A DNA stretch of 64,000 bases from Pseudomonadota bacterium (GTDB lineage Bacteria > Bdellovibrionota > Bacteriovoracia > Bacteriovoracales > Bacteriovoracaceae), in the NCBI GenBank assembly GCA_027488375.1, contig JAIYBW010000004.1:806001-870000 (forward strand). The letters are read 5' to 3'. The position numbers were made by a program, and so were the translations under genes. The notes beneath the pieces are model-generated. The model had not been told where the DNA came from, did no database searches, and was given only the letters and a program-made list of their open reading frames with translations. Positions within the stretch are counted from its first letter, which is position 1; every line of letters starts with the position of its first letter. Shown one piece after another: positions 4,610 to 61,112 of the stretch.

Positions 4610-4992
4610 TGAACTCACAATCTCGCAAAATTCTAGTGACTGGTTTTTGTCTCCTTGGTTTGGCCGTTCTTCTTGGAGCCTTTGGGGCCCACGGACTCAA
4701 GAATCTTGTCACCCCTGAAAAACTCGTCACTTTTGAAACGGGTGTCCGTTATCATTTTTATCATGCTTTAGGGATTGTGCTCATAGGATTAGTTCACCAA
4801 TTATTTCCTTTAATCAAAATAAAAATATCATTCATCCTTTTTTTAATTGGAATTGTTCTCTTCTCATTCAATTGTTATCTGTACGTTATCACTGGCCTCA
4901 AGATATTTGCCTTGATTGTTCCAATTGGTGGAACGGCTTTTTTGATTGGCTGGTTTCAGTTAGCGTGGCAAGTACATCGGTTTAGGAATTGA
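4606..4992 (+). CDS. DUF423 family membrane protein
   Basis: A 128-residue inner-membrane protein with four predicted helices. The LLGAFGAHGL motif after the first helix, and the ETGVRYHFYHALGIVLIG segment opening the second, are diagnostic of DUF423 (YgdD/YwdK family). Function is unknown in all family members that I know of. The start overlaps the previous stop in ATGATGA, so translation is probably coupled. The last 33 nt overlap the coding end of the facing lipoprotein gene. Confidence 0.85.
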   Translation: MMNSQSRKILVTGFCLLGLAVLLGAFGAHGLKNLVTPEKLVTFETGVRYHFYHALGIVLIGLVHQLFPLIKIKISFILFLIGIVLFSFNCYLYVITGLKIFALIVPIGGTAFLIGWFQLAWQVHRFRN

Positions 4993-6108
4993 AAATCCAC
5001 ATTTTGATTTTAGATAATCATCAAAAGCTTTATCAGTTGGAAATTTAAATTCAATTGGACTGACATCCATGTTTTCCCAAAAATCAGTTTTAGGTCTTCG
5101 ACATCTTTGCCCAGTGGTCCCATTTAAGATTAAGACTTCGGCAGACCCCTTTAGCCCATAATCCATATCAATTTTTAAGTTCTCAAACTGGCCAAGTTGA
5201 GGAGATTGTCCGCGAGCATTCACTCTTAAAACCACTCCGTAACCTTTATACTTTAAGTCGGCGTAGCGACGCTTGAAGCGATCCGGCCCAATATCAACAG
5301 GACCTTCCTCAAAAACACCTGTGACAATTTCTTTGGACTCTTTTTGAAAAATAATTTTCTCACCTGTAGGTAGAGTCACATCGATGGTGGCCTCTAATTG
5401 TTCAACCACAGGTAATTGGTTTCGAGGAAAGAACATAAACACCGAGTGCATGGTATGAGAAACCGTATCATTAGGTGAATCATCAACCTGAAGAGCGAGG
5501 TTTTGTCTTGCTTGCTCTGGATATTCAAAACTAAAATTCCGAGAAGATTCAGGCTTAGTCACAATACTATTCTCGCCCACATTCACTAAACTAAATTCTT
5601 CTGTCGTTGATTCAGGAGAAGCACTCCCCCTACTGATACTGAGCTCACCATGAGATCTTCCTTCAGAGTATTCATGATGAAGTGGGATCATTTCATCTTT
5701 AAGCGGAGCGTTTGTTGTTTGAAGGATGAGAATATTACTTTTGACTGTGTCTTTCCACTCAACTTGAAGCCTAATATCTGGGCTTTTAACGGCCGGAAGA
5801 ATCGCTGTTTTATAAACTCCCTGCTTAAGCGAGAAAGGCATCGCAGAGACGTCCTCTGAAGCGGAAACAATTAATTCTTCAGGACTAATATGAGTGAGAA
5901 GATTTCCCTCCTCATCAAAAAGTTTTACGGTTAAAAAAGTTGCATCCATACCACTCGCAAAAATCACCGCATCTTTAAGTGATGCTTCAATCCTAGCAAC
6001 TTTTGAAATGGACTGCCCTGAACTTGCAAGAAAACGCTGACCAGATGAGTACTTATACTTAAAGGGAGAAGAGCAAGAAATGAGGATAAAAAGAAGCCAT
6101 AAACGCAT
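4960..6108 (-). CDS. Lipoprotein with beta-rich, Ig-like segments
   Basis: A 382-residue lipoprotein: a short signal sequence with lipobox LISC, then a mature chain without further membrane segments. Residues about 40 to 130 (KLFDEEGNLLTHISPEELI region) resemble an invasin/big-type Ig-like domain. Residues about 210 to 330 look like another beta sandwich. The family is unrecognised. The upstream region contains a FliA-like promoter whose -10 box ends 7 nt before the ATG, suggesting flagellar or attack-phase control and a nearly leaderless message. Its 3' end overlaps the DUF423 gene by 33 nt on the other strand. A surface or periplasmic structural role is a guess. Confidence 0.7.
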   Translation of the reverse strand: MRLWLLFILISCSSPFKYKYSSGQRFLASSGQSISKVARIEASLKDAVIFASGMDATFLTVKLFDEEGNLLTHISPEELIVSASEDVSAMPFSLKQGVYKTAILPAVKSPDIRLQVEWKDTVKSNILILQTTNAPLKDEMIPLHHEYSEGRSHGELSISRGSASPESTTEEFSLVNVGENSIVTKPESSRNFSFEYPEQARQNLALQVDDSPNDTVSHTMHSVFMFFPRNQLPVVEQLEATIDVTLPTGEKIIFQKESKEIVTGVFEEGPVDIGPDRFKRRYADLKYKGYGVVLRVNARGQSPQLGQFENLKIDMDYGLKGSAEVLILNGTTGQRCRRPKTDFWENMDVSPIEFKFPTDKAFDDYLKSKCGFSIPKPMYLPR

Positions 6109-6115
6109 GAGTCTC

Positions 6116-6142
6116 TTATCGGAAACTCCGCCTAAATCTTGA
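6116..6142 (-). promoter_or_regulatory. FliA (sigma-28)-like promoter of the 6108 lipoprotein gene
   Basis: TCAAGATT, 11 nt, TCCGATAA on the minus strand. The FliA consensus in enteric bacteria is TAAAGTTT-N11-GCCGATAA, so this matches 6 of 8 and 7 of 8 positions with exact spacing. Confidence 0.5.
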
Positions 6143-6150
6143 GTAAAAAG

Positions 6151-18904: not shown

Positions 18905-20035
18905 ATGAATGTTCGTTCAGATGTAAACCAGCACTTTAAATTCACTCTCCAACACGTTGATAAAAATTGTGGCGCTCGGGCCGGAATTATTCATACACCT
19001 CACGGTGATATTGAGACTCCTGTCTTCATGCCCGTTGGAACTCACGGCGCGATCAAGGCCCTTCAGCCTAAAGAACTCGTTGATCTTAATATTCAAATCA
19101 TGCTCTCAAATACTTATCATCTTCACTTAACTCCAGGCTCAGAGCTGGTGGCGAAGGCCGGAGGATTGCATAAGTTTATGGGATGGGATCGCCCTATCCT
19201 CACAGACTCAGGTGGCTTCCAGGTTTTTTCTCTTCAGAAAAATTCCATTACTGAAGAAGGGGCCAACTTCAAGGGAGCAAAAGGAGAGAACGTTCTCCTC
19301 ACGCCAGAAATCTCCATTCAAGTTCAGCAAAATCTTGGGTCAGATATCATGATGGCCTTTGATGAATGTATTCCATATCCAGCGACAGAAAAATATGTCG
19401 AAAACTCTATCGCCAGAACTCACCGCTGGCTCGATCGCTGTATCGAGGCATGGAATAATCCAAAGCAAGCGCTTTTTGGAATTGTTCAGGGTGGTGTTTA
19501 TGATAAATACCGCGAAATCTGTATCGAAGAAGTCACAAAAAGAAATCTACCAGGATACGCTATTGGTGGAGTTTCCGTCGGTGAAGGTCCTGAGCATATG
19601 GAAAAAGTAGTTAAATTCACCGCACCCCTTATGCCAAAAGATAAGCCCCGCTACGTGATGGGTGTTGGTATGCCTGAGGATCTTCTTATGATCTGGGAAA
19701 ATGGCATAGACATGAGTGACTGTATCATACCGACGAAATTTGCTCGTGGTGGTACTCTCTTCACGAACCGCGGAAAAATCCGCATTGAACACAAAAATTA
19801 TCGCAGAGACTTTTTTCCAATTGAGCCTAATTTAAAAGACTATGTGAATACAAACTTCACACGGGCCTATATCAAGCATCTATTTGACTCAAATGAGATT
19901 TTGGGACAAATCCTCGCCACGGCCCACAACATTTCTTTTTATAAGTCACTTGCCTCAAGAGCGAGACAAGCGATCCTTGAGGATCGTTATCTCGAATTTA
20001 AAAAGCAATTTCTCGATGGATACAAAAGAGATTAA
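18905..20035 (+). CDS. tgt: Queuine tRNA-ribosyltransferase (Tgt) lacking the zinc cysteines
   Basis: A 376-residue enzyme that exchanges guanine-34 for a queuosine precursor in tRNA. Catalytic features are intact: DSGGFQVFSL, MAFDECIPYP, AIGGVSVGEG and GIDMSDCIIPT with the nucleophilic aspartate. The C-terminal zinc site is altered. Where E. coli Tgt has PECDCYTCRNY, this protein has PNLKDYVNTNF, so all three cysteines are replaced by Leu, Asp and Asn, while the downstream histidine in IKHL is kept. I chose the ATG at 18905, which fits the family length. It partners functionally with QueE at 6151. Zinc loss could affect folding or dimerisation, or define a zinc-independent subgroup. Confidence 0.9.
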   Translation: MNVRSDVNQHFKFTLQHVDKNCGARAGIIHTPHGDIETPVFMPVGTHGAIKALQPKELVDLNIQIMLSNTYHLHLTPGSELVAKAGGLHKFMGWDRPILTDSGGFQVFSLQKNSITEEGANFKGAKGENVLLTPEISIQVQQNLGSDIMMAFDECIPYPATEKYVENSIARTHRWLDRCIEAWNNPKQALFGIVQGGVYDKYREICIEEVTKRNLPGYAIGGVSVGEGPEHMEKVVKFTAPLMPKDKPRYVMGVGMPEDLLMIWENGIDMSDCIIPTKFARGGTLFTNRGKIRIEHKNYRRDFFPIEPNLKDYVNTNFTRAYIKHLFDSNEILGQILATAHNISFYKSLASRARQAILEDRYLEFKKQFLDGYKRD

Positions 20036-22623
20036 AAGTGCTCTTTAAAAATCTTGAGTTGCAGACGACGGCGGGAAAGATCGAGCTTCGACTTCAGGGC
20101 AGCCACGTCGATTTGAAATTTAATAACCAGTGGATCTGCTTGAAATTCTCTTACGGCCTGAGATTCAAGATTCGCCCAAGCATTGAGTAAACAATCCTCT
20201 CGATCTTTTTTAAATTTAGTTCTATTTAAACTCGTATCTACAGGATAAGGGACAAGACATTTCTTGGCCTCCTCAACTCCAAGAGAATAAATTCGTGATT
20301 CTAAATTTGTATAAGATTTAGAAGTCAGCTCAGATTTTGATCTTTCAATCCAATCGAGATAACTAGAAGACTGAGTTATATTGAAGCAAACATCTTTGAC
20401 CAGCTGACTAAAGACCACAGATTTCTGGTCATAAAGGACTGAGAAACTTATTTCTTTAAGGGCTTTTTTCTGACAATCACGTTGAATATTTAAATCAGAA
20501 ACCACATCTGAGACCCAGTTAAAATCAGCAGTCATTTTAGCTCTTAGAGGAGCAACTTCTTTATCTGTAAAAGCTTGAAGAACAAGGGCTTCTTTTTTGC
20601 GGGCCTCCATCAATAAAGTTTCTAAACTATTTAAAAACTCTGGCACGACTTCTGCTTTAATAAGAATTTCTTCTTTCGGATGCTGAATTTTCTCCCCTCT
20701 ATAAGAGAGCTGCTTTACTAATCCTTCGACTTCAAAATTAAAATTTTCATTGAGACAATTATACAGAGAACTAATCAAATATCCTTCTCTGACCGTGAAA
20801 ATACGTCCTCTTGGGGAGGCATCATCCGAAGGAAGTAATTCATGACATGATTCCCATAGTTTTTTCGCAGCTGATTCGACGCCTAACTTTTCTGATTGGA
20901 TAAACGCCTTGTAGTAAGTAGAAAGATAATTCTTTATGCTTTCAAATGTATGGGCTTCACTATAAAGGCGTGCCAGGTCTTCACTATGAGCTTCAGGCAA
21001 ATCTAAAGAAGCCAAAGAATTGATAACTTTTTTATTAACCTCTTCTCGGTAACATGATTCTTCTTCCTCAGGATCTCCGCATGTTAGAAAAGCATCAATG
21101 GCCATTTCTTTTTCAGGAATTTTTTCCATGAAAGATTGGACTTTCGCAAAATAACCAGGATCCATTTGTAGCTGCTTAAGATACTTATTTAAATAACTGC
21201 GTGCCTCAATCTTAAAAAGAACATCCCATTCATCTTTTGCTTGATAAGCATTCAGGATTGAGCACCCCTCGATTTCTTTCGTCTTAATTTCAGAAGAGAT
21301 GTCTAGTGATAATTCATTGGCCCGAGACCCTAAACACTGCACCATGGCCGGCAAAACAGGAACGATGAAATCACTTTTTGTGAAATAAGATGACTTGTAA
21401 GCTTGAGTCGTTCTTGAACATTCTTCAACCATCTGAAAAGACCGCGAAGATAATTCAGAAGATTTTTTGGCGAGCCAATTCTTCATCAGCTCTTTATTTT
21501 CAAAACTACTATCAAAGAAATATTTATCTGAAACAAAATTCCAATGATCTTCTGATATAGATTTTCTGGTTTTTGTCCCTTCTAATCTAAAAAGTGAAAT
21601 AGTTTCTGCAAAATTTTCAGCAGGTGAAGTCCCGGCATAGCTTGAAACCAGTTTTATCCCATCATGATGTTCCCACTGCCGAACAGTCTTACCAGACTCA
21701 TCTTTAAACTCTTTGAGATAAAATTTAGCGACATCAAGGTAATCTTTCTCGGAAGAGCGATAAATACCTTTTTTCTCTCGTCCCTGGTGATAGTCCAATT
21801 GGTGAGTTATTTCGTGCATGACTGCTTGGTAAAAATAGCCAAAGTCTTTATCTGAGCTAACTTGAAGACAAAGATCTTGAAGAATCACATAGCCAGACGA
21901 CCACGCAAGGCCACAGGTTTCTCCAAATCCACCACCGCCATTTTTCCGTTCTTCCACTTCAAAATCAAAACTTTCACCCTGAGGCACGCGATGAATTTCT
22001 GTAAAATCTAAAAGTCTTGTATGAGGCTCCCTTAAGAGTTGCAAGAGACGCCAAAAAGCATAGAGTTCATTTTCTTTATAGAGATAGGCCGAGACTGGAA
22101 ATTCTTTGCCATTATAGATACCAGGCTTCGACTGAGATTTTGCATTATAAACAGTATTTGTCGCTGCGAGAAGGTTCCCCATTTTGAGGTACCACAAGTA
22201 GTGAACATACCCAGCGACATCTCCCTCTTTCTGATAAATTTTATTGAACACACAGGGAACGTCTTTACATGAGGAAAAATCAAAAGCCTGAGTATTATTG
22301 AGATCACCTAATCTATTGCCGTACTTCTTCAGAAAATTGGCCTGAGGGACCGGAAGAGATGAGAGATCTAAATGTTTCCATTTCCCAGAGACCTTATTTA
22401 AGTTTAAAAACTTATCTTCGATCTCTTTAATTTCTTTTTTAACAACTTCAACGGAGAAAACATCTTTAAGGCATTTTTGGGCCTCAATGGTGGCCACATG
22501 ACGGGCCATTTCTTGTTTGGGATGCTGTGAAATTTTTTTGATGAGTAAATGGCCTGAGGGTTTTGAGCAACTCACCAAATTTAACATCAGAGTAAAAAAG
22601 ACGATAAAACTAACGGACTTCAT
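20032..22623 (-). CDS. Large lipoprotein with HExxH metallopeptidase-like motif
   Basis: An 863-residue lipoprotein (lipobox LVSC after a 19-residue signal). Residues 270 to 274 form HEITH, in VMHEITHQLDYHQ, and a candidate third ligand lies 62 residues later in SPAENFAETISLF (E336 or E340). This arrangement is that of gluzincin-type zinc peptidases, but the family is not recognised. The C-terminal 500 residues are helical, charged and contain about ten cysteines. The gene overlaps the upstream small lipoprotein gene by 14 nt, so the two form an operon, which has a FliA-like -10 box. A periplasmic or surface protease is likely, with unknown substrate. Confidence 0.7.
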   Translation of the reverse strand: MKSVSFIVFFTLMLNLVSCSKPSGHLLIKKISQHPKQEMARHVATIEAQKCLKDVFSVEVVKKEIKEIEDKFLNLNKVSGKWKHLDLSSLPVPQANFLKKYGNRLGDLNNTQAFDFSSCKDVPCVFNKIYQKEGDVAGYVHYLWYLKMGNLLAATNTVYNAKSQSKPGIYNGKEFPVSAYLYKENELYAFWRLLQLLREPHTRLLDFTEIHRVPQGESFDFEVEERKNGGGGFGETCGLAWSSGYVILQDLCLQVSSDKDFGYFYQAVMHEITHQLDYHQGREKKGIYRSSEKDYLDVAKFYLKEFKDESGKTVRQWEHHDGIKLVSSYAGTSPAENFAETISLFRLEGTKTRKSISEDHWNFVSDKYFFDSSFENKELMKNWLAKKSSELSSRSFQMVEECSRTTQAYKSSYFTKSDFIVPVLPAMVQCLGSRANELSLDISSEIKTKEIEGCSILNAYQAKDEWDVLFKIEARSYLNKYLKQLQMDPGYFAKVQSFMEKIPEKEMAIDAFLTCGDPEEEESCYREEVNKKVINSLASLDLPEAHSEDLARLYSEAHTFESIKNYLSTYYKAFIQSEKLGVESAAKKLWESCHELLPSDDASPRGRIFTVREGYLISSLYNCLNENFNFEVEGLVKQLSYRGEKIQHPKEEILIKAEVVPEFLNSLETLLMEARKKEALVLQAFTDKEVAPLRAKMTADFNWVSDVVSDLNIQRDCQKKALKEISFSVLYDQKSVVFSQLVKDVCFNITQSSSYLDWIERSKSELTSKSYTNLESRIYSLGVEEAKKCLVPYPVDTSLNRTKFKKDREDCLLNAWANLESQAVREFQADPLVIKFQIDVAALKSKLDLSRRRLQLKIFKEHF

Positions 22624-23033: not shown

Positions 23034-23067
23034 AGTATCTCCTTAGATGCTTATCGGCGGAGATACT
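23034..23067 (-). promoter_or_regulatory. Inverted repeat that includes the ribosome site of the 23032 gene
   Basis: AGTATCTCC and GGAGATACT, 9 bp perfect, 16 nt apart. On the minus strand the 3' arm contains the Shine-Dalgarno of the small lipoprotein gene. If the message starts upstream, the ribosome site would be hidden in a stem. Confidence 0.4.
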
Positions 23068-23077
23068 TAACCACTAA
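23051..23077 (-). promoter_or_regulatory. FliA-like promoter (weak -35) of the lipoprotein operon
   Basis: GCCGATAA on the minus strand matches the FliA -10 consensus completely. The -35 (TTAGTGGT) at 11 nt is poor. A start from it would leave about 11 nt of leader, just enough for the AAGGAG site. Confidence 0.35.
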
Positions 23078-23113
23078 AGTCAGTTATACGCTTTCTCTTT
23101 ATAAATCAGTGAC

Positions 23114-29778: not shown

Positions 29779-29817
29779 AGGCCCAATAAATTCTAACCTA
29801 ACATTCGACAAATTATC

Positions 29818-29844
29818 TAAAGTTTTGAATTTTTATGCCGATAG
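29818..29844 (+). promoter_or_regulatory. FliA (sigma-28) consensus promoter of the 55-residue peptide gene
   Basis: TAAAGTTT, exactly 11 nt, GCCGATAG. It matches the enteric FliA consensus at 15 of 16 positions. It lies 46 nt upstream of the ATG at 29891, leaving room for the AAGGAG and AGGA ribosome sites. It is the best promoter match in the window. Confidence 0.8.
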
Positions 29845-40668: not shown

Positions 40669-40704
40669 TTGGTAAGGGGGGCAAATCCCTCTTACCAATT
40701 TTTT
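40669..40704 (+). terminator. Intrinsic terminator of the nfeD-slipin operon
   Basis: A 12-bp stem, TTGGTAAGGGGG (40669-40680) with CCCTCTTACCAA (40687-40698), one G-U pair, 6-nt loop, then six T. It overlaps the stop codon of the facing small gene. Confidence 0.88.
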
Positions 40705-40974: not shown

Positions 40975-41001
40975 TTATCGGTTGAGGAGCTGGGAAAATT
41001 A
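40975..41001 (-). promoter_or_regulatory. FliA-like promoter of the small acidic exported protein gene
   Basis: TAATTTTC, 11 nt, ACCGATAA. The -10 box matches 7 of 8 and the core TAA of the -35 is kept. Leader of about 15 nt with the ribosome site GAGGAG. Confidence 0.5.
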
Positions 41002-41034
41002 ATCCTTTATAGGGAGTTAACTCATTGAATCTAC

Positions 41035-46389: not shown

Positions 46390-46412
46390 TTATAGCAAGA
46401 GGAATGACACGG

Positions 46413-49400
46413 ATGTTGAACTCGAAACTAAAAAAACTCAATTTTGATCTTATGAAATCGCTGATTCTAGTGATTGGATTAATGTTTTTTGTTTCCTGTT
46501 TACCACAACAAACTGCTCCTTCAATAGAAGAGGGACAAAGCACTTCTCCCTCACCTACAGGTTCATCAACACAATATTCAGAACCAACTTTCCCTTTTTC
46601 AAATACATTTGTTCAAGAGGGAGGAGTCCAAAGTAATAATTATTTTTCATTAAATTTAGATTTTACAGACTCTTTTTTAGTGCGCGGAAAAGAGCTTTCA
46701 TTGTTTTTGAGAAATATTCCTAATACAACGAAGTTTTGTCTCGTAGGTAAATATACTTACTCACCAGGCAACGATAAATTTCTTATCCTCAGTGCCAAGC
46801 CTAAATCTTACACAGACCTTGTGAATAGAACGACTGAATTTTACCTTCAAGTTGAACCCTCGAATGATCAGGCCAATCAAAATGATTGCTTGACCTACAA
46901 TCTCACAAGCTCACTCTTTAATCAGGGGTCCTCACCCAGTGCTTATTTTAGTTTAAATCAAGTTTGTTCAAGCTGTAATACGACTGTCACCTCAGAAGGG
47001 TTAAGACTCTACTTCAATAACGGAGAAGCGGTTCCTTCATTAAATTTGGCCAGTCTCGCTCTTACTATTTCAGGTTCAACCTCTACCACAAATAATACAT
47101 GTGTAGAATCGAATGCCTGTGTAGCGAGAGGTTATAGTTGCTGCCTCAATGGTCAGTGTGTGAATGATGGGGCGATCAGGCCTGGCGCCATCACATCAAT
47201 TGGTTTTAATGAAGCTCAAACTGAAGTCGCATCAAATCCCAATAAATTTGTACTCTATCCTCAATTTTATTTTGTGTGTGCTAATCGCCCAGAAGGAGAT
47301 GGAACCTCTAATCAAACCGATCCAGTGGATGCATCTTATGATGCAAGCATTCGCAAGATGGAATTGAGTCAATTGCACCAATGCTTAAATAAGGTCGATG
47401 AGGAATTTTCATATTGTACTGTCAAATTCGATTCGGCTAGCCAAAAAATACAGGCCGGCTCTTCCTTCTCTGCTTCAGATAAGGGATTTAAAGATGATAT
47501 CACATTTAAGAATCTAAATCCGAACTTGAGTACTGGTGATCATTCACAAAACATAACGAAAATATTTTACGCAGGCCAAGTCTTATTTGAGGCCAATAAA
47601 ACACCATTAATAGAAGGCTCATTTGTCACCTCTGGCAATGATTCTCTCTCTGTCGCTCAGGGTGTAAAAATCACTAAGACCCTACCGGCCAATGCTCTCG
47701 ATGATAATCTTTACTTAACATATAAGATTGATGGCAGTTGTGAAAAGATAGGTTCAAATCTTGCCCGCTGTAAAAAGAATTACATCTTTAATTCAAGCGA
47801 TACACTTAAACCAACTTACCAAAATGGGACTAAGATTTTCAATCTTCCTGAATACGCTGATACATCAGTGACCGCAAATATCATCATTAAAGTCTCTGGT
47901 ATTATCGTACCTGAGCATGCGACGACTTGGGCAAAGGCACAAAACCCAAACCGTATAATTTTTAGTTCAAGCTATCCTCTTTATCAAAACCAAAATATTG
48001 AGATTACGTATTATGTAACAAGCTCTGTTTCGACTCTTCTTGCTTCCAAAACGTCGGCGCAGGAAAAAGTAAATGCCATGTGCTTATGTAGCACATCGGA
48101 AAAATGTAACCTCAGGCCTTTAATGGATGCCAACCAAGGTATCGTTAATTACGAGTGTGTTCACTCTCTTCCGACAACAACCGAACCACCAGTCAATCAA
48201 ACGGTTTTTATATCTGGTAAGAATGTTCCCCATCGTTATTATGATCTCAATGGAGTCAACTACGACGAGGATCTTTCTGGAGCTCCTGATCAAGAAGGAA
48301 CTGCTTTTTTCTATAAAAACAATGATGTCTTAAAACCTTCAAATTTAGATGCTTACACTGGTTACACTGGTTTTAATGAAATCTATGGATCATTCTCAAA
48401 ACTTAATCCTTCATCAGCAAAGCCTGCTAAGATGGTGAAAGTTAAAAAAGATAAGGTTTATGATATTTTTGCCAACAGTGGTGTGTTCTCAACTTGTTTA
48501 ACCTGTGGATCAGACTATTACTCTTCAGTCATAAAATTATTTCCGCAAGCGATGAATGCTATCGGAGGTGGATACTCACCAGATCAATTTGCCTCAAAAA
48601 GAACTGCAATTACGGGCTCAACCTATCGATCAGATGACTTACTTTTTGGACGGGCCTGTTTTGTTCCTGCGACGATGATTCCATGGGCCCATCAAGCTTC
48701 GAGCACTGTCAAAGATCAAAGGACTAAAAGACTTGCTTCACAGCATTTTTTATTTGCGAATGGTTATAATCGTGATTGGTACGGATTTGACTACGGCTCA
48801 CTTATTGGTTCCTTTGACGGTGTCACTTGGTTTTCAATTGGAAATCAGCGAAGAATAAAGGCCTTGTCGAATAAACTTTTTATTGCCGTAAATGCTTATT
48901 ATGGTGATCTCAACCTCGACAGTAATTTTAATGTAAGTGTGACAGAGACAACTATTTTTTCACCAGAAATTCCAGATCATGATACGGAAACAACAGGTGG
49001 AGAATGTCAAAAATCTCACTTCTGCTCAAATGATAATGACTGTTTTAGACAATTGGGTTTTGATTATACCTGCCAAAATGTTGCAACAATAAGTACCAAC
49101 TGGCCACAGTCTGACTCGAATGGAAATGAAATTGTTGGCGTTCTCAATAAAGGTCTTGCCTCTCTCGTTGGCGGAACAAATGGACAAAGCAAGCGTTGTG
49201 TTTATCGTGGTAGAGGGGCTCCTTGCGAAATTAACTTGGCTTCACTTGCAAATACCTTTAACAGTTCTTCAGTTCCCGGTCAGTTATCTTGTTCCAGTAA
49301 TTCTATGTGCCAGTCACTTACATCGGGATCGTCTAATCGCTTTAATGATCGAATCGCAAGATTTGCGAATACGCCGATCGCTCAGAATTCAGCCTCAGCA

Positions 49401-51350
49401 TCACCTACACCTACAGACACTGTTGGCTTGGGAGCAAGGGTTTTAGGAAGACCATTTGATTTTTATGGAAACAAATCAGTCCCTTCAGCCTCTCTGAACG
49501 CACTAGTCGCTAATAATGTAAAAGCTGTTTGCATACCTGGAAATATTAATTCTCCATCTAATCGAATAGACTCCTCAGACAAAATTCTCTCCATTGGTTC
49601 TACACTTTCAGGAGCACAAAACTCAAATTATCTCAATACTTGTCCGGCGACAGATAATTATGGTGTTCAAGTTCAATATTCAGCACAAGCTCTTGGAGTC
49701 GCGAGCTCGCCTCTCAATATTTTTACCGCTACCCAAAATTTATCTTCAAACTTACTAGATCTTCCGGCCTTAAGTGGACAAAATATTTTTAGCTCAACCT
49801 CAGGATCGCAAATCACCTCAATTGGCTATCAACGAAATTCATGTTTAAGAGCACCAGGGGCTTCTTGTTTTTCTGATATGGACTGTGCTCCTTCAGAATT
49901 TATTGCAAGCAAGGTAAAACCAACAACTCTCAATGGAATTCTCAATCAGGCCGAGAAGAAATTCTGGGAAGAAGAACTTGTTTGTGGGAACCCTGACTAC
50001 AAGTATATTCAAACTGGAGTTTTGAATACTGCAACTTTTAATGTAAAAAATAATGTGTGTTGTCGAGAATATGGAAAAGCATTTACAGTATTCACTCAAA
50101 AAGATGATTCCGATCACCATTGGTGTGACACGACCACATCCTCTATCAAAGTTGCAGGTGTGAATACAAACATTTCATCTTTTAATCGGTACTCCCGGGT
50201 CCATACGGCCTACGATAAAATGACATGTAATCAATCTGAAGTATCTAGCACAAAATCATTTGCCCTCTCATTAAAATCTCTTAATGCCGCCGATCGCTAC
50301 AAACAACAACAAACGCAATTCAAAACTCTTGATACTGTGAACTCAAGAACTTGCTGTACAAAGAACTGGGTTCGACATTTTTCAACAGAAAACGGTGGTG
50401 GGCATAAATGGGGCCAGGGTAAATCTCAAAACATTGATAAATCTAATTTTATTACTCTCAATTGGATTCCAAACAATTATTCAGACTCCTCAAATTCAAC
50501 TCCATATGAATGTGATGTTGATGCCTATATGAATCCAAGTTGTGAAATTAAAGATTTTACTCAAGCAGAAGTTGATCTCTACTCCAAATTTTTTGGGTCA
50601 CTAGAGCTTATTGGAATTCCTCAAGCAGCCATTATTTCTGAAGATCAAGTAAAAAAGCTGACTGATGGGACAAGTGGTATGGCGCCAAGTACTAATGAAC
50701 CTGTGACAGGAACCTTGCTTTCAGTCTTTTTTACAGGCTCTCAAAACTTGCCAGTAACACCGGACTTTATAAACAGTACAAGCAAGAATCTTTATTCAGG
50801 TGCAAATTATAATGCTCTTCAAAGCACTCTTAAAAAAGTTTTCTCTGAAGATGAATTCAGCTGTTGCCTTCCTACAGGACAACAAGTTCCAGACTATACA
50901 ACACCAGAGCAATGCTGTACTGGTTATCTTGCCAATTCCGGCTCTAGCAACCTCCTTAGATGTTGCCTACCCGACTTCACTGACCTTACTGTTTATTTAA
51001 GCCGATATGTTTCTTCTGAAGGTAGAGGTCTTCCTGATTCAGCTTATGATCCAGACACTGGATATATTAAAGAACCAGGCGTTGTGGCGCAAATGGCAGC
51101 TCAGAAAAATCTATGTTGTTCTGGTAAATTCGCAACAGGTGTTGCGATTAGAAAACTCCCCATCCCTATTAATGGTGGGACATGGATCAATGAACAGTCG
51201 GCCTGGACGAGAAGATTTACTTATCTTTCAAGTGCAGTAGATAACAACACAGAATTTGGGCCAATTGGCGGAATATTCGATGCTGGAGTGAGATGGAATA
51301 ATCATGTTTATTGCATACCGGAGAGCTTAGAAATTCCTGCAGAGAAATAA
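46413..51350 (+). CDS. Giant cysteine-rich lipoprotein
   Basis: A protein of about 1645 residues. I chose the ATG at 46413 because AGAGGA lies 9 nt upstream; an ATG nine bases earlier touches that site. A positively charged start and a long hydrophobic segment end in a lipobox (FFVSC, then LPQQTAPS), so it should be lipid-anchored. The mature chain is Ser, Thr, Asn and Gln rich. Near residue 230 there is a compact cysteine cluster (CVESNACVARGYSCCLNGQC), and paired cysteines (CC) recur at least six more times toward the C terminus (CCREYGKA, CCTKNW, CCLPTGQ, CCTGYL, CCLPDF, CCSGKF). No family is recognised. It resembles the large disulphide-rich surface proteins of predatory or gliding delta-type bacteria. 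A FliA-like promoter precedes it. Confidence 0.8.
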   Translation: MLNSKLKKLNFDLMKSLILVIGLMFFVSCLPQQTAPSIEEGQSTSPSPTGSSTQYSEPTFPFSNTFVQEGGVQSNNYFSLNLDFTDSFLVRGKELSLFLRNIPNTTKFCLVGKYTYSPGNDKFLILSAKPKSYTDLVNRTTEFYLQVEPSNDQANQNDCLTYNLTSSLFNQGSSPSAYFSLNQVCSSCNTTVTSEGLRLYFNNGEAVPSLNLASLALTISGSTSTTNNTCVESNACVARGYSCCLNGQCVNDGAIRPGAITSIGFNEAQTEVASNPNKFVLYPQFYFVCANRPEGDGTSNQTDPVDASYDASIRKMELSQLHQCLNKVDEEFSYCTVKFDSASQKIQAGSSFSASDKGFKDDITFKNLNPNLSTGDHSQNITKIFYAGQVLFEANKTPLIEGSFVTSGNDSLSVAQGVKITKTLPANALDDNLYLTYKIDGSCEKIGSNLARCKKNYIFNSSDTLKPTYQNGTKIFNLPEYADTSVTANIIIKVSGIIVPEHATTWAKAQNPNRIIFSSSYPLYQNQNIEITYYVTSSVSTLLASKTSAQEKVNAMCLCSTSEKCNLRPLMDANQGIVNYECVHSLPTTTEPPVNQTVFISGKNVPHRYYDLNGVNYDEDLSGAPDQEGTAFFYKNNDVLKPSNLDAYTGYTGFNEIYGSFSKLNPSSAKPAKMVKVKKDKVYDIFANSGVFSTCLTCGSDYYSSVIKLFPQAMNAIGGGYSPDQFASKRTAITGSTYRSDDLLFGRACFVPATMIPWAHQASSTVKDQRTKRLASQHFLFANGYNRDWYGFDYGSLIGSFDGVTWFSIGNQRRIKALSNKLFIAVNAYYGDLNLDSNFNVSVTETTIFSPEIPDHDTETTGGECQKSHFCSNDNDCFRQLGFDYTCQNVATISTNWPQSDSNGNEIVGVLNKGLASLVGGTNGQSKRCVYRGRGAPCEINLASLANTFNSSSVPGQLSCSSNSMCQSLTSGSSNRFNDRIARFANTPIAQNSASASPTPTDTVGLGARVLGRPFDFYGNKSVPSASLNALVANNVKAVCIPGNINSPSNRIDSSDKILSIGSTLSGAQNSNYLNTCPATDNYGVQVQYSAQALGVASSPLNIFTATQNLSSNLLDLPALSGQNIFSSTSGSQITSIGYQRNSCLRAPGASCFSDMDCAPSEFIASKVKPTTLNGILNQAEKKFWEEELVCGNPDYKYIQTGVLNTATFNVKNNVCCREYGKAFTVFTQKDDSDHHWCDTTTSSIKVAGVNTNISSFNRYSRVHTAYDKMTCNQSEVSSTKSFALSLKSLNAADRYKQQQTQFKTLDTVNSRTCCTKNWVRHFSTENGGGHKWGQGKSQNIDKSNFITLNWIPNNYSDSSNSTPYECDVDAYMNPSCEIKDFTQAEVDLYSKFFGSLELIGIPQAAIISEDQVKKLTDGTSGMAPSTNEPVTGTLLSVFFTGSQNLPVTPDFINSTSKNLYSGANYNALQSTLKKVFSEDEFSCCLPTGQQVPDYTTPEQCCTGYLANSGSSNLLRCCLPDFTDLTVYLSRYVSSEGRGLPDSAYDPDTGYIKEPGVVAQMAAQKNLCCSGKFATGVAIRKLPIPINGGTWINEQSAWTRRFTYLSSAVDNNTEFGPIGGIFDAGVRWNNHVYCIPESLEIPAEK

Positions 51351-54550: not shown

Positions 54551-54711
54551 TCGAACGTTCCTCGCTAAAACTATTGAAATTACTTATTTTAGTTTCACTT
54601 TTTTTTGTTGAAATGCCAAGCGTCTCAATAAGTTGGATAAATTTTCTCTGCCTTTTAAAAAACAGGCTTAAAATGCCTAAAGCTTGAGTGAAATCGTTTC
54701 AAGATGAAACT

Positions 54712-54738
54712 TAAAATTTTTGAGCAAATAACCGAAAA
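54712..54738 (+). promoter_or_regulatory. FliA-like promoter of the 1070-residue exported protein gene
   Basis: TAAAATTT, exactly 11 nt, ACCGAAAA. The -35 matches 7 of 8 and the -10 6 of 8. It lies in the 221-bp divergent region, 33 nt before the ATG at 54772. Confidence 0.5.
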
Positions 54739-54771: not shown

Positions 54772-57700
54772 ATGAAAAAAAACAATCTCTCTTCTCTTAT
54801 TACTCTCAGTTTGAGTTTAGAGATGATCCTCTCACCTCTGCCAGCTCTGGCCGATAACACCAGCAAAGTGAATGCTTCTCAAGTCATGGAAGGATTAAAT
54901 TTTGGAATGGGCCTTTATAATCAAGTCAGAGGTAATAACCCAAACTATGGTGACCCTCTTAATGGCTCCATGATGCCAGCTTCCCAGATGCCTCCGCAAA
55001 TGGCTTCAGATATGGCCGAACTTCAAAAACAACAAACACCTCTACCAGATAAATACTTTACTCTACAAAACATGCAAAAGATTCCTGGCCTTATGGAATA
55101 CATAGGAGTCATGAATGGTCTTACAGCTGCAACTCGCGGCAAACCGATCAATCCGGCACAACTCAATTGTACGACTTTACCGACAACACTTTTTGAGGCG
55201 AATAATGAAGTTTGTCGAAACGGTACCATTAATGCCATGGCCGGTAACATTGAATTCCAAAAAGCCGAAGCCGGGGCCTATTACAATCAGTACCTTCAAG
55301 TAGAAAAGACTTACAAAAATTATTCTGAAGATTCAAACGTCGGCGGCCAGGCTTATGGTACAGGATGTATGAACGATGCCATGCAAATCCTAAAGGGTTT
55401 CTTTGATTATAGAACTGCCCAACTTGATGCCACGATCGGAGAAATGGAAAAAGCTCTCACTAACTTTGAGGAGCAACGGAAGGCAGAATTAACCAGCATT
55501 AAACAATCGACGGCAGTCCTAAATGGTGAGGACTCTCAATTTGCCAAGGAATTCAAGAACTCTGGTATTTTTGATTATGAAAAACGCTTCAATGATCCGG
55601 CCTGTAACTCTATCTTTCCTCAGAAAGGTAAAGATGGCGTTTCAAAACTTGGTAAGAGTAAAGGTCTTTTGGGTATTGAAGAAAAACTTCAAAATGATTT
55701 TTCAACAGCTCCTGAAGGATCAAAGTATTCTCCAGAACAATTTTTCTCAAAGAATGCAGAGATTGTTGCAGATATTACAAAAATGGCAGATCAAGTTTCA
55801 GAGCAGGCCAACCTTAACTTCAACGAAATTTCCAGTGGAAACCAAGGCTACAGTTCCTTCCTTGATAGAGTCGGCCAAGATGTCTCGTCTGAAACTGGCG
55901 CTAGCCAAGCCTTAAATAAATCTTTCTTTGCAGATCTTCAGGGGAAATTTACCAAAGTTAGAAATCAACTTGATGAAGAAAGCAAACTTATAGCTTCAGA
56001 ATTAGGTCAAGGTAGCAAACTAGCACTCGATCAAGTAAGTAAAATTGAAAGTGAGACATCCTTTAATGCTGAGGTCACTTCTCTTGAGAACGCCATGAAA
56101 GCAAAATGTGTAAGCGAAACGGGAGTTGATACGGCCCTCAGTAGAGTTTATGATCCAAAACTTTCAAAAGAAGCCAATAAGCAAACATCTGCTCAGGTCA
56201 GAAAAAAACTAACGGCCATTCTTAATGACATTAATCTCTCACCAGAGAAAAAAATTGAGCGCCTCAAGGAACTCGACACTCAAAGTGCGAATCGTTATGA
56301 AATGAAGCTTGATGCCAATTATGAAATTCAAGAATTAAAGGCCGATGGTTCAATCGCTAAAAAAACAGTCAGTGCCGCTGGCCGAGTCACTCCTGGTGGC
56401 TACTTCACAGATGTCATCAAAAATTGTGAAACTCAATTCCAAGTTAATAAACTCAATAATAAGCTCTCAGGTAAAGAAGCCATTAAAAGACTTCGTACTC
56501 TAAAACAAGATTATAAAAAAGCTGCTCGTCAGCACTCTCAAGATATCCGTGGTGAAATCATCAAAAAAATGATTGATTGCGGAGGCAATGGCGCCAAAGC
56601 TGCAAGTGCTGGAGTTGGAACTTGTGGACCAGATAAACTTGATATGACGAAATCTGGTTTTTGTACCAAAGCTGCCTTTTCTTGTTCATCAAACATGAAA
56701 ACTTGTACTGATAAAGCACAAAAGTTTGTAAAAGAGATCAAAGATGAGAGACTGAAATTAACAACAAATTATAATGCCAACGTTGAACTTCATCGCAAGC
56801 AACTTGTTATGATCTTTGACAACTCTTTAAAAAAATACACTGTTGAAGCTGAAGCCATGCGTGCACAATTCGGTGCGGGCTTTACTGTGCCAACAGGAAT
56901 CAATCGGGACATTCAAGATGGCACTCAATTTGATTCTAGCTTTCAAGCTGACGCTAATGACAAGCTAGAGATTAAAGATCCAAAGAAATATCTTAATATG
57001 GTCAAGACCAACATGCTCGCATTGAAGGATCAAGTTAAAGCTCAGCAAGATGAGATTATTGGTAGCAATGGTCTACTTGCCTCACATATCAAAGCCACTA
57101 AAGAGAACTATCAAAAAAATGTTATCGGACAGGCCCAGAGCTTTGCTCAGAGATGTTTAGCTGCTTACAACTCTTATGGAAGCATCGTTAAAGAGCAACA
57201 GGATCAATATAACAAAACCATGGGTGAAATGGGCCAAAAAAATACCGAGCTTTGTTCTAAGTATAATCAGATCATGAGCAATAATCCAAATGGTGCTTGT
57301 GATACATTCGAATCCGTAGGAACCGATGCTTTAAAAGCTGCAGCAGCTGCCGGAGGAAATGTATCGCAGATTCAGTACACTATAGATACCATGCAGAAAC
57401 GCTGTGCTGGTGCTGCCAAAGAAATGGATGATGCTGACGAGATCTGTGCCATGGATAATAGAGCTCCATTTGAGGAATACTTTGAATCAAAATATAAAGG
57501 TAAAGGTGGTCTTGAAGTTGCCTGTAATATTGATTTAAAAGATGATGCAAATAAAGAAAATTGGTGTAGTAAAACTCCTGCGAAAGAGACAATTGATAAA
57601 TTTAGTGTTCCAAAGACTGATATCAATGCCGCTCGATTACAAGCCAATGGAGAAGTTGGTGGAAAAGGAGATGGTTGCATCATTACTAATAAGGATGGTG

Positions 57701-57984
57701 AATCGGCTGGAGATTTCTCTGAGGGTGGTGTAAAAATGGGTTATTACTTTGCGTACAAATGTACCGGCAAAGCAACTTACGACTGTTCCGGGGTTAAAAA
57801 CAAAATCAAATTTGCATACTCCGCTGCTCTCTCGGCTGGAAAACTAAATGATGAATCTGAAGCCGGATCAGTCCCAGCAAGCTGCCCGGCGAACAATAAC
57901 TCAGGTCAATTTAATACGAAATCTCTGTTTCCTGATGGCTCAACTCCAGCAGCCTACCAGGGAACAAATGCGACAAGGCAATAA
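54772..57984 (+). CDS. Large exported, helix-rich protein
   Basis: A 1070-residue exported protein. The signal peptide (SSLITLSLSLEMILSPLPALA) has an AxA site. After it comes a Met, Asn and Gln rich segment, then long stretches of charged helix (KALTNFEEQRKAELTSIKQ, RLKELDTQSANRYEMKLDA, ALKDQVKAQQDEIIGSNG) with coiled-coil character. A cysteine cluster sits near the middle (CGPDKLDMTKSGFCTK, CSSNMKTC) and others near the C terminus. There is no transmembrane segment or lipobox. The family is unknown. AAAGGTAG precedes the ATG. It is followed by a hairpin and then the metallopeptidase lipoprotein gene 55 bp later. Confidence 0.78.
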   Translation: MKKNNLSSLITLSLSLEMILSPLPALADNTSKVNASQVMEGLNFGMGLYNQVRGNNPNYGDPLNGSMMPASQMPPQMASDMAELQKQQTPLPDKYFTLQNMQKIPGLMEYIGVMNGLTAATRGKPINPAQLNCTTLPTTLFEANNEVCRNGTINAMAGNIEFQKAEAGAYYNQYLQVEKTYKNYSEDSNVGGQAYGTGCMNDAMQILKGFFDYRTAQLDATIGEMEKALTNFEEQRKAELTSIKQSTAVLNGEDSQFAKEFKNSGIFDYEKRFNDPACNSIFPQKGKDGVSKLGKSKGLLGIEEKLQNDFSTAPEGSKYSPEQFFSKNAEIVADITKMADQVSEQANLNFNEISSGNQGYSSFLDRVGQDVSSETGASQALNKSFFADLQGKFTKVRNQLDEESKLIASELGQGSKLALDQVSKIESETSFNAEVTSLENAMKAKCVSETGVDTALSRVYDPKLSKEANKQTSAQVRKKLTAILNDINLSPEKKIERLKELDTQSANRYEMKLDANYEIQELKADGSIAKKTVSAAGRVTPGGYFTDVIKNCETQFQVNKLNNKLSGKEAIKRLRTLKQDYKKAARQHSQDIRGEIIKKMIDCGGNGAKAASAGVGTCGPDKLDMTKSGFCTKAAFSCSSNMKTCTDKAQKFVKEIKDERLKLTTNYNANVELHRKQLVMIFDNSLKKYTVEAEAMRAQFGAGFTVPTGINRDIQDGTQFDSSFQADANDKLEIKDPKKYLNMVKTNMLALKDQVKAQQDEIIGSNGLLASHIKATKENYQKNVIGQAQSFAQRCLAAYNSYGSIVKEQQDQYNKTMGEMGQKNTELCSKYNQIMSNNPNGACDTFESVGTDALKAAAAAGGNVSQIQYTIDTMQKRCAGAAKEMDDADEICAMDNRAPFEEYFESKYKGKGGLEVACNIDLKDDANKENWCSKTPAKETIDKFSVPKTDINAARLQANGEVGGKGDGCIITNKDGESAGDFSEGGVKMGYYFAYKCTGKATYDCSGVKNKIKFAYSAALSAGKLNDESEAGSVPASCPANNNSGQFNTKSLFPDGSTPAAYQGTNATRQ

Positions 57985-58001
57985 TAGCCTGAGTAAAACT
58001 C

Positions 58002-58029
58002 TCGGTTGAGATCACAAAATCTCAACCGA
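58002..58029 (+). terminator. Strong hairpin between the 54772 and 58040 genes
   Basis: An 11-bp perfect stem (TCGGTTGAGAT with ATCTCAACCGA) and a 6-nt loop. No T-run follows, so it may be a processing or partial-termination site. Its 3' arm overlaps the FliA-like box ACCGATAA (58025-58032), next to the AAGG ribosome site of the next gene. Confidence 0.45.
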
Positions 58030-58032: not shown

Positions 58033-58039
58033 GGTTCTT

Positions 58040-60604
58040 ATGATAGTAAGTCAATGGATGACCAACACTTTCAAAACAACCGCAACAGCACTTTTTCAGT
58101 GTGTAATCCTTATTAGTTTTTTTGTCTCATGTAATCCCACAGAAATTACATCAAGTGGTCAGCGGGCCGGAACTTCATACGCCAACGGCGAGCTGGCCAA
58201 TATGGCCTTTATCTATCGCGATAGTCCCTACATTCTTGAAGGTCCAAATTATGGGCCAAATGCAGATATGAAAGGCTCAGTGGATTTTAGTATTCCTGAA
58301 TTTATTACGAATAAATCATCTCTCAAAGGTGACTGTACTCTCCAACTCTTTTCAGGTGTCGTAACGATTCAAGACTGCATTCATTCGTATGATTCAAAAT
58401 CACCTTCTCAGCAACTTCTACCAAGAAAAGCTGATGGCACATGGATTTTTGCTCCAAACTCTTCTGAGTTTTATCAAGTGAACGCTCTTTACCATATCCA
58501 GCAAGGTGTAAACACATTCTTTGATAAACTTTCGTTTGCCTACAATGAACTTCATGCTCCAACTTCATCAATGGCGTCAAAAGCAAAATCGATTCCTAAA
58601 TATTTACCAAGCACAGGACTCTTTTGGTTCCAGGCCATCACACCAGCAAACGATAATTATTTCAGAAATAGTTTTTTAAGTTCCTATGCCCTTTGTAACT
58701 TAGAGAATAATGCTCGATTCAGTGTGGCGGCACCGGAATTGTGTTTTGGAAAATCTTCTCAGTATAAATCTTTCTTTTTTATTCAAGACCCTTCAATCGT
58801 CTATCATGAGCTTGGTCACGCCCTGATCGCCATCATGATGAATTTTAGAAACGGACGTCCGCAAACTCTAGCACCATCAACATACCATCCTCTTCGGTCA
58901 AACTTAGGCTCCTATGGTTATGATGAAGCAGGTTCGTTAGGTGAAGGTTTTGCTGATTACTATAGCTTTGTGATGAACAAGAGAACCCATTTTGCTGAAT
59001 GGTCATTGGGAAAATTTCAATCATCACGTCCTATCAGTGAAGAAGATCCCTCTCACATCACAGGTATCAACACAACAGCTGAGGGAAGACTCTCCTATCC
59101 TCAATTTCTTCTTTATGATTCAAATCATCCAACGGTACCGATTGAAGATATCCATCTATCTGGACAGATTACTTCACACTATCTTGTGGCCCTCACGAAA
59201 TCTCTTCAAACTGAATGTTCAATGCCAACGGCCGAAGCCCATAATATTTCAACATCCTATGTGATGATGCTGGTTGCTGAGACATTTAGTGAGCTTGGTG
59301 ACTTAAATGCCGTCGGTATAGATACCTCTTCTGGCTCTGCCTTTAATCCAAGTACTTTCCCTTATCGATTGAATAATCTTGATGAGAATGCCTCTTTCAC
59401 TTGGGCCCATTTAATTAACCCTCCAACGTACAGAAAGTTTTATCAAATCTTTGCCAAAAATTTAAATCGTTATGTGACTGAAAAATTATGTCCAACTTTT
59501 ACTCAAGATGAATCTGAAAAACTCCTCGATGATTATGGTCTTCTGCTTTTTAAAACTTACAATAATAATGGTTCAACAACGAAGAGTAAGACTGTTCAGC
59601 TTAATTTAAATAGCCCTGGTCAAACAATCACAGGTGTTGCACCGAAACCAGTACTTGAAAATAACCGCCGAAAATCTGTCCTCGTTTCAAAAGAACTTTT
59701 AGACCTTGCACCGGTTGATACAGAAAAAGATGTGGCCACCTACTATATTATTGATGACCAAGAAAGCATGAGTGCGATTGTTCAAAATCTTTTATTTAAA
59801 GGCACACCAGTTCCTATCACAAAGAATGTGGCCAGTGTTGAGTACAACAACTCAAACATTAAAGTTTCACCAGGTGAAGTGATAGCGATTATCCCTAACC
59901 TCTTCAATAACTCTAACAGCACGATGGGTGGAATTCACCTCCTCGCTACGGACTGGGATCATGCCCATATTGAGGAAACATCGACAGGAAACTTCAAACC
60001 TTGCGTGATTGATGGTGTCACAACCGTCGCCCAAGGAGCAGAAGCAGGAAAGACATGTACCTCGACCATGACGAGCTATAAGAGAAATATCAAGAACGCA
60101 TCAACTGGCGAATTCAGTACTGAAGCTGCAGCACCAGTTTGCCTTGTTCAAGTTGAAGACGGAGATGTGACTCGTTGGGTTTCTCAAAATGAATTTAGAC
60201 GAAAACAAGGACTCACCCTTAATGATAAAGATTGTCTAGGCTATGGCGGAACTGGGGCTTTTGAAGATTTTACATTCAATCCTCACGAATGCCTCGTTCG
60301 AGTTCTTCCGGGTTCAAGTTCTGCTTATTTTTCAAAAATTGATCCTCAGAAATCTTATGTTGAGACAGTCAGGACTGGAAATCCAGATCATATCTTCAGT
60401 CCGACCAATGCGATCCTTTTTGAAGTTAATAAATGGATTCCACCTGGGACGAAATTTAGATGCCGGATGAGAGCAAAATTCAGTAACTGCTCAGACTGCT
60501 TTAATGATCCTAATGATGCAACAAAAGATGATTATATTGATGCTGAGTATAATGGAGCGAAGCCATTTAAAATTATTAACGTTGAGTTTGATGTAAATGA
60601 CTAA
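58040..60604 (+). CDS. Lipoprotein with gluzincin-like metallopeptidase motif
   Basis: An 854-residue lipoprotein (lipobox SFFVSC). HELGH at residues 256 to 260 and, 42 residues later, GSLGEGFADYYSF with E302 form the HExxH...E pattern of gluzincins, like the fungalysin/thermolysin clan (NEGxxD-type). The N-terminal 240 residues may be a separate domain, and the C-terminal 500 residues hold several cysteines near the end (CRMRAKFSNCSDC). AAGG lies 6 nt upstream of the ATG. It overlaps the next gene by 8 nt. It probably acts outside the cytoplasm; the substrate is unknown. Confidence 0.75.
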   Translation: MIVSQWMTNTFKTTATALFQCVILISFFVSCNPTEITSSGQRAGTSYANGELANMAFIYRDSPYILEGPNYGPNADMKGSVDFSIPEFITNKSSLKGDCTLQLFSGVVTIQDCIHSYDSKSPSQQLLPRKADGTWIFAPNSSEFYQVNALYHIQQGVNTFFDKLSFAYNELHAPTSSMASKAKSIPKYLPSTGLFWFQAITPANDNYFRNSFLSSYALCNLENNARFSVAAPELCFGKSSQYKSFFFIQDPSIVYHELGHALIAIMMNFRNGRPQTLAPSTYHPLRSNLGSYGYDEAGSLGEGFADYYSFVMNKRTHFAEWSLGKFQSSRPISEEDPSHITGINTTAEGRLSYPQFLLYDSNHPTVPIEDIHLSGQITSHYLVALTKSLQTECSMPTAEAHNISTSYVMMLVAETFSELGDLNAVGIDTSSGSAFNPSTFPYRLNNLDENASFTWAHLINPPTYRKFYQIFAKNLNRYVTEKLCPTFTQDESEKLLDDYGLLLFKTYNNNGSTTKSKTVQLNLNSPGQTITGVAPKPVLENNRRKSVLVSKELLDLAPVDTEKDVATYYIIDDQESMSAIVQNLLFKGTPVPITKNVASVEYNNSNIKVSPGEVIAIIPNLFNNSNSTMGGIHLLATDWDHAHIEETSTGNFKPCVIDGVTTVAQGAEAGKTCTSTMTSYKRNIKNASTGEFSTEAAAPVCLVQVEDGDVTRWVSQNEFRRKQGLTLNDKDCLGYGGTGAFEDFTFNPHECLVRVLPGSSSAYFSKIDPQKSYVETVRTGNPDHIFSPTNAILFEVNKWIPPGTKFRCRMRAKFSNCSDCFNDPNDATKDDYIDAEYNGAKPFKIINVEFDVND

Positions 60605-61112
60605 TCAAAAAAAGAAACTCACCTTCCTTCTTGCTTCTTTATTTCTGCTCGCAGGAATTGGATTCTGGTTTTCCTCTCATTCAAAAATTAAAGTCCCAAA
60701 ACAGGCCCATCTGGAAAAGGGATCTCCCTTAAATCCCCAAATGATCCCACCGAAATCACCTTTTATAGAAATTAAAAAAGGTGAAAAAAACTTTTTTGTA
60801 AATAATCCTCAGAAAGAATGGAAGAAGCAACTTGAGCAAACACTCCGCGATCAAGGTGGAGATTTTATTACAGATGTAGAGATTAAACATGAAAGGTCAT
60901 TAATTTGGAATAGAGATGATCAACCACTGAGAGTTGAATCTGTGATGATTACCCTCACTAACAAACATAAATCACAATCACACTTTCGCGCGATGATTGA
61001 ACCTCAGACAGGTAAAATCCTAGAGACATGGGATAAAACAATTTTCGAGCCCGCTGACAAACAAGAAGAGTTTCGTTTTAAACTTGATCCTCGTTACACC
61101 ACCGCTATTTAA
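60597..61112 (+). CDS. Membrane-anchored PepSY-like protein
   Basis: A 171-residue protein with an N-terminal anchor (LTFLLASLFLLAGIGFWF) and a C-terminal domain in which VESVMITLTNKHKSQSHFRA and IEPQTGKILETWDKTIF follow the PepSY pattern: a strand, then a D/E-P-x-TGxI turn. PepSY domains are propeptides or inhibitors of thermolysin-like peptidases. The gene overlaps the metallopeptidase lipoprotein gene by 8 nt, so a protease and its regulator are plausible. It also overlaps metG by 4 nt at the stops. The assignment to PepSY is by motif only. Confidence 0.62.
   Translation: MTNQKKKLTFLLASLFLLAGIGFWFSSHSKIKVPKQAHLEKGSPLNPQMIPPKSPFIEIKKGEKNFFVNNPQKEWKKQLEQTLRDQGGDFITDVEIKHERSLIWNRDDQPLRVESVMITLTNKHKSQSHFRAMIEPQTGKILETWDKTIFEPADKQEEFRFKLDPRYTTAI

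Follow-up and report, generated by a model that had tools for sequence, protein, structure and literature searches.

FliA machinery and seven boxed genes

The 64,000-nucleotide stretch of DNA analysed here (G000:C7:806001-870000, hereafter the window) comes from a draft genome of 3.2 Mb in 11 contigs, G000, whose host is a member of the Bacteriovoracaceae and a relative of the predatory Bacteriovorax. The genome encodes a FliA/WhiG sigma factor that passes both curated cut-offs (TIGR02479, 271.9 bits with a cut-off of 189.6; NF005413, 261.8 with a cut-off of 201), as well as FlgM and seven matches to flagellin domains. The nearest named records of the FliA protein, 93-97% identical, all stem from metagenome assemblies and are mostly labelled Bacteriovoracaceae or Bacteriovorax stolpii.

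An earlier note on this DNA had named seven places where a FliA-type box precedes a gene on the coding strand, and all seven boxes are present, that of 58040 included. Each upstream region carries a CCGATA or CCGAAA box in the correct orientation and, as had been claimed, a hydrophobicity rule predicts every one of the seven genes to be exported or anchored. The features are as follows.

6116..6143, minus strand: candidate FliA promoter of lipoprotein gene 4960-6108; CTCAAGATT-N11-TCCGATAA, 7 nt before the ATG, leaderless candidate
23051..23079, minus strand: candidate FliA promoter of lipoprotein gene 22610-23032; CTTTAGTGG-N12-GCCGATAA, 18 nt before the ATG
29817..29844, plus strand: candidate FliA promoter of the 55-aa anchored peptide gene 29891-30058; CTAAAGTTT-N11-GCCGATAG, 46 nt before the ATG
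40975..41002, minus strand: candidate FliA promoter of small exported protein gene 40692-40952; TTAATTTTC-N11-ACCGATAA
46361..46389, plus strand: candidate FliA promoter of lipoprotein gene 46413-51350; TTAAAAATA-N12-TCCGATAC, 23 nt before the ATG of 46413
54711..54738, plus strand: candidate FliA promoter of exported protein gene 54772-57984; TTAAAATTT-N11-ACCGAAAA
58005..58032, plus strand: candidate FliA promoter of lipoprotein gene 58040-60604 (followed by 60597-61112); TTGAGATC-N11-ACCGATAA, 7 nt before the ATG, leaderless candidate
58002..58029, plus strand: 11-bp inverted repeat (TCGGTTGAGAT / ATCTCAACCGA) that holds the 58040 promoter

The seven first genes have no NCBIfam match, and a Pfam scan of ten window proteins matched only 20032 and its neighbour 23114; the 55-aa peptide of 29891-30058 went without a match in both the Pfam and the NCBIfam scans. 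At 23032, a Shine-Dalgarno sequence lies between box and ATG, and 22610-23032 is followed by the M90-peptidase-like lipoprotein gene 20032-22623. The product of the latter matches Peptidase_M90 (glucose-regulated metallopeptidase) with an E value of 3e-8 and has relatives in 22 of the 25 other genomes of the genus. The peptide gene 29891-30058 and its FliA box sit between a kynureninase-like and a murD-like gene (both named by eye) in all 13 relatives that have this stretch. The start proposed at 46413 is preferred over the one at 46404, where some relatives lack the ATG. Around it, at 46395-46425 (GAGG-AATGACACGG-ATGTTGAACTCGA), the nucleotides are unusually alike among relatives, into the first codons, a likeness that partly reflects the search pattern itself; the N-termini of the relatives diverge soon after. 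This segment could be an RNA or translation element.

A motif learned from the lineage

As a yardstick, the E. coli consensus proved too narrow for the Bacteriovoracaceae lineage. The earlier note had fitted the seven sites to TAAAGTTT-N11-GCCGATAA: this holds closely for 29891 (1 mismatch) and at 3 mismatches for 6108 and 54772, and fails for 23032, 40952, 46413 and 58040, none of which fits at up to 3 mismatches. With an intragenic chance site at 10054, the window holds four such matches where 0.94 are expected, a number reached by 3 of 100 shuffles. The motif CCGATAA, estimated at about eight occurrences, was counted 12 times, with 5.64 expected and 2 of 100 shuffles reaching 12; four of the 12 are indeed followed within 30 nt by a start codon on the coding strand, which agrees with the earlier count. 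Genome-wide, the bare pattern TAAA-N15/17-CCGATA is hardly enriched (41 matches vs 34 for a reversed control).

Since this consensus was too strict, we learned the motif anew from the upstream regions of orthologues within the genus, in which 25 relatives were searched, and from flagellin promoters. The G000 copies of six window families and the whole 58040 family were left out of training, while the G000 flagellin promoters were kept in; the matrix was seeded with the E. coli FliA consensus, a point that counts against the interpretation preferred below. The learned motif approximates CTAAAGTTT-N11/12-nCCGATAAG, and a flagellin promoter conserved throughout the genus, around CTAAAGTC and GTCGAAAAG, matches it in its -35 box and spacing.

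With the tested family excluded from the matrix, the held-out scores were 21.4 bits for 6108, 21.1 for 29891, 16.3 for 40952, 15.7 for 54772, 11.9 for 23032, 10.2 for 58040 and 9.0 for 46413. The share of 160-nt stretches of the window that reach these scores is, in the same order, 0.2%, 0.2%, 0.5%, 0.5%, 1.4%, 3.6% and 6.7%, so that four sites stand out on their own and those of 58040 and 46413 do not. Compared with the lineage motif, and with the right spacing throughout, the boxes are strong at 6108, 29891, 40952 and 54772, moderate at 23032, and weak, taken alone, at 58040 and 46413. When both strands of the window were scanned with the full matrix, the top four positions were the sites of 29891 (the best), 6108, 54772 and 40952, with 23032 ranking sixth, 46413 tenth and 58040 thirtieth. 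Four window sites reach at least 16 bits (0.05 expected), five at least 14 bits (0.9 expected) and 11 at least 12 bits (5.5 expected).

The weaker sites are credible because their boxes are kept in orthologues, with relatives often carrying TAAAGTTT where the -35 of G000 is poor. Box tallies were counted by eye from listings, and the number of relatives varies by gene because contigs end. Among the orthologues of 29891, GCCGATA is kept in 13 of 13 relatives; those of 6108 have the box 6-7 nt before the ATG in six of six. A CCGA box precedes the orthologues of 54772 in 24 of 24 relatives, those of 23032 in 20 of the 20 with upstream sequence, and those of 40952 in 11 of 12; several of the last carry TAAAGTTT, as in G002, G003, G008 and G018, where the -35 of G000 is poor. 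For 46413, CCGATA is found in 12 of 14 relatives, with CCGATT in G011 and none seen in G014, and a looser CGA box precedes the start of 58040 orthologues in 23 of 23.

The 58040 hairpin and the 7-nt gap

At 6108 and 58040, the box stands at a fixed short distance from the ATG that leaves no room for a Shine-Dalgarno leader. With the -10 box ending 7 nt before the ATG, the first base of the mRNA would be the A of the AUG or a neighbour of it.

The 58040 promoter lies within the inverted repeat, the 5' arm holding its -35 and the 3' arm its -10 box. Taking the best register within a short loop limit, a choice that favours pairing, 9-11 of the 11 positions pair in 21 of 24 species, with 8 in G010 and 7 in G015 and G024. 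A 56-nt RNA of the repeat folds at -18.4 kcal/mol (z -4.2), and the window contains no known RNA family at gathering thresholds. The exact repeat has one copy in the G000 genome; a role as a multi-site operator was rejected on this single match and on the finding of any match in only 13 of 26 genomes. A classic terminator is unlikely, as no T run follows the hairpin. A FliA transcript starting at the 58040 AUG would lack the hairpin, whereas read-through RNA from 54772 would carry it; in that longer RNA, the only one to hold it, the hairpin may block translation of 58040 or protect the RNA's end.

One alternative is that the hairpin, as RNA or operator, is the conserved feature at 58040 and that the likeness of one arm to a FliA -10 box is secondary. 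We consider this unlikely. It draws on the score of just 10.2 bits and on the conservation of the pairing, in which G-U pairs are frequent and both arms have changed together in G011. However, the repeat is eroded in G009 and G010 (7 Watson-Crick pairs), yet the box and a TTAATTTY -35 remain there, and 21 of 24 species keep the gap at 7 nt; both points speak against it.

The 7-nt gap recurs well beyond these two genes. In the window and a 0.8-Mb genome sample together, the distance from box to start, for boxes of at least 12 bits, shows a spike at 7 nt and nothing at 9-11 nt. Our gene caller rewards Shine-Dalgarno sequences and thereby hides some leaderless starts (G000:C7 81056 and 192782); the spacing test was therefore rerun without gene calls, on any ATG with at least 50 open codons. 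An ATG exactly 7 nt after the box was then found for 8 of 70 boxes of at least 14 bits in G000, 2 of 19 in G025 and 2 of 18 in G003. The counts are 11/147, 4/48 and 2/48 in the same genomes at 12 bits or more, and 6/40, 2/8 and 0/7 at 16 bits or more. Given a chance of about 0.4-0.5% per position, the binomial P is 2.4e-9 for the 8 of 70 in G000, 3.9e-5 for the 4 of 48 in G025 and 0.003 for the 2 of 18 in G003.

The control was TANNNT, the main sigma factor's box, which has its peak at another distance: in 46 called genes of the genome sample (L264-L303) it ends exactly 6 nt before the start, vs 8-25 genes for distances of 2-5 and 7-13 nt. Genes that the main sigma factor transcribes without a leader thus seem common in G000, where a loose Shine-Dalgarno-like pattern precedes 48% of 806 genes. 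That the FliA box and TANNNT are each locked at one distance from the ATG is as expected if transcripts start on the AUG.

Across 290 genomes of the phylum, CCGATAA-N7-ATG was compared with CCGATAA-N11-ATG, with sums for two genera read off tables. The window genus has 273 matches with N7 vs 150 with N11 over 18 genomes (N7 commoner in 16), and the genus g79 has 511 vs 202 over 21 genomes (N7 commoner in 20). For gaps of 4 to 12 nt in turn, the g79 genome G094 gives 8, 10, 5, 35, 14, 11, 6, 9 and 2 among the 100 of 101 matches listed, and G000 gives 5, 6, 5, 18, 12, 6, 4, 14 and 5; the peak of the bare box at 7 nt is thus clear in G094 and modest in G000. In gap-7 matches, a pyrimidine directly precedes the ATG in 30 of 35 cases in G094 and 14 of 18 in G000.

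Could the short-gap CCGATAAG boxes, those of 6108 and 58040 among them, act in translation instead, with AAG(G) as the Shine-Dalgarno sequence of transcripts that start further upstream? A G does follow CCGATAA in 23 of 35 gap-7 matches of G094 and 10 of 18 of G000, and TAAGG precedes the ATG at 58040. However, this G belongs to the general motif (0.56 in the matrix), no AAGG follows the box at 6108, many gap-7 boxes have correctly spaced -35 boxes, and the gap is fixed at one value while the TANNNT box has its own. We regard a translation signal as improbable. Promoters that start transcription on the AUG are preferred: the enrichment of the 7-nt spacing in the window genus, and its still stronger enrichment in a second genus of the phylum, make leaderless FliA mRNAs likely.

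These genes may lean towards exported and anchored proteins. Samples of three genomes contain 17 gap-7 boxes of at least 12 bits, and 13 of the 17 genes encode, by rule, an export or anchor segment at the N-terminus, compared with 305 of all 752 sampled G000 genes (P 0.003, with a base rate from G000 only and the 17 from three genomes). G000 alone gives 8 of 11 (P 0.03), and leadered FliA genes at 14 bits or more 16 of 39. The rule also counts membrane anchors: by eye, 148127, 319949 and G003 195044 look anchored and not secreted, while 192782, which it missed, has a clear signal peptide. In G003:C19, a flagellin gene (L324-L343, start 175636 of the joined stretch, within G003:C19:275648-276058) has a 20.1-bit FliA box 6 nt before its ATG, and this flagellin may itself be leaderless.

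Breadth of the regulon and its probable place in the life cycle

To the earlier note, the regulon consisted entirely of exported proteins. Inside the window this description fits, as no cytoplasmic gene has one of the named sites (7 of 18 exported genes vs 0 of 36 others). The window is an extreme patch of exported targets; if seven sites were distributed at random, P would be 0.00018 for all to fall on exported genes, a value to be read with the fact that the sites had been chosen in the note.

Elsewhere the description breaks down. In the 0.8 Mb of G000 sampled outside the window, with 752 genes called by script and export labelled by a hand-made hydrophobicity rule, 32 genes have a site of at least 16 bits up to 200 nt upstream. 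Sample and window together give 37 such genes, vs 0 in reversed sequence and 2 in the genes' own coding sequence. If these upstream regions are read on their opposite strand, sites of 16 bits turn up for 15 genes, and divergent neighbours may lie behind these. The 32 include fliA itself and a flagellin, and a MotA/PomA-like gene (below curated cut-offs) has a 14.6-bit site. A Pfam scan of 30 of the 32 left 19 without a match; the 11 matched include a GGDEF-FHA diguanylate cyclase, a protein kinase, a DksA-like protein, a PAS protein, a CheA-type hybrid kinase and a 5'-nucleotidase. At L291:17242-18528, two divergent genes without a Pfam match have a common intergenic region with two FliA boxes facing apart, of 22.7 and 21.2 bits.

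That FliA promoters belong essentially to exported surface proteins, in a regulon defined by function, is thus very improbable. It has the seven of seven in the window and, under a start-tolerant rule, an exported share of 21 of 45 sampled genes at 14 bits or more vs 243 of 752 overall (Fisher P 0.047). However, the excess is weak at other cut-offs (3 of 13 at 18 bits or more; 15 of 32 at 16, P 0.08; 24 of 62 at 12, P 0.26), the first rule gives 17 of 45 (P 0.32), and cytoplasmic signalling genes have strong sites. The matrix scan of the sample shows exported proteins to be at most mildly favoured among the predicted FliA targets, and the regulon, as read from these sites, extends well beyond them. 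As for seven chance matches picked by eye, the merely modest enrichment of the plain consensus and of CCGATAA speaks for it, but the held-out scores, the Markov null and, for each gene, footprints in 6 to 24 relatives make it scarcely credible.

We therefore favour, with a probability of about 0.85, the reading that the sites are promoters for FliA (sigma-28) RNA polymerase, in a regulon that includes two leaderless units and the 58040 hairpin promoter. For the seven sites as predicted FliA promoters the evidence is strong: the control by FliA proposed in the earlier note agrees with the presence of fliA, flgM and flagellins, with a motif common to the flagellin promoters and with conservation. 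FliA, once freed from FlgM, would transcribe flagellar, signalling and exported-protein genes, the seven units of the window included. Five of these would yield mRNAs with short leaders, and the mRNAs of 6108 and 58040 would be translated without one. The seven units are probably transcribed in the swimming attack phase, a timing carried over from published Bdellovibrio work.

In that work, 140 attack-phase promoters of B. bacteriovorus were mapped, of which 92 have a FliA-type box (TTAAG-N16-CCGATA) (PMC3627812); a reporter test showed the TAD operon to be driven by FliA, and fliA could not be deleted and appears essential (PMC5430801). A toolbox paper of 2025 used FliA promoters with an added ribosome site (PMC12622784). 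The present regulon resembles this one in its FliA-type boxes before flagellar, surface-protein and other genes (PMC3627812, PMC5430801, PMC12622784, as excerpted). It differs in belonging to the Bacteriovoracaceae, where it is known from sequence alone with conservation across the genus, and in target families that lack a Pfam or NCBIfam match. The excerpts of the same three papers contain no mention of the recurring 7-nt spacing from box to ATG.

The arrangement is also that of known leaderless genes, with a box fixed a few nucleotides before the ATG (PMC3160421; PMC12340547 for Deinococcus-Thermus). As excerpted, these descriptions of the class concern the sigma-70 box TANNNT, whereas here a FliA box takes the same arrangement in several genomes (PMC3160421, PMC12340547). 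Excerpts of the former report leaderless genes in 8 of 33 delta-proteobacterial genomes, and a transcript of whiH of Streptomyces coelicolor that starts at the start codon behind the GCCGACAA box of sigma-WhiG (PMC3160421). The literature, as represented mostly by listings, yielded no report of leaderless FliA messages in Bdellovibrio or Bacteriovorax predators, and the only mention of "leaderless" in the available text of a Bacteriovorax genome paper is in the title of a reference (PMC9753608). The FliA attack-phase regulon is thus already known in Bdellovibrio, and the leaderless branch looks like a novel form of it.

A wider picture can be offered only tentatively. Predators of this phylum might have a leaderless FliA branch that fixes transcription starts on the AUG of genes rich in secreted and anchored proteins; part of the surface of the swimming cell might then be made by leaderless translation, and the promoter of 58040 might sit in a hairpin that keeps read-through RNA untranslated.

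With these results, the FliA regulon of Bdellovibrio gains a counterpart in the Bacteriovoracaceae that is conserved throughout a genus, and several families of proteins that match no database probably find their place in the programme of the swimming cell. A sharp prediction follows that bears on the published maps of Bdellovibrio start sites: there should be FliA messages whose first base lies on the AUG. Leaderless messages start translation by a different route. If true, leaderless FliA messages could therefore link the phase of the life cycle to the mode of translation.
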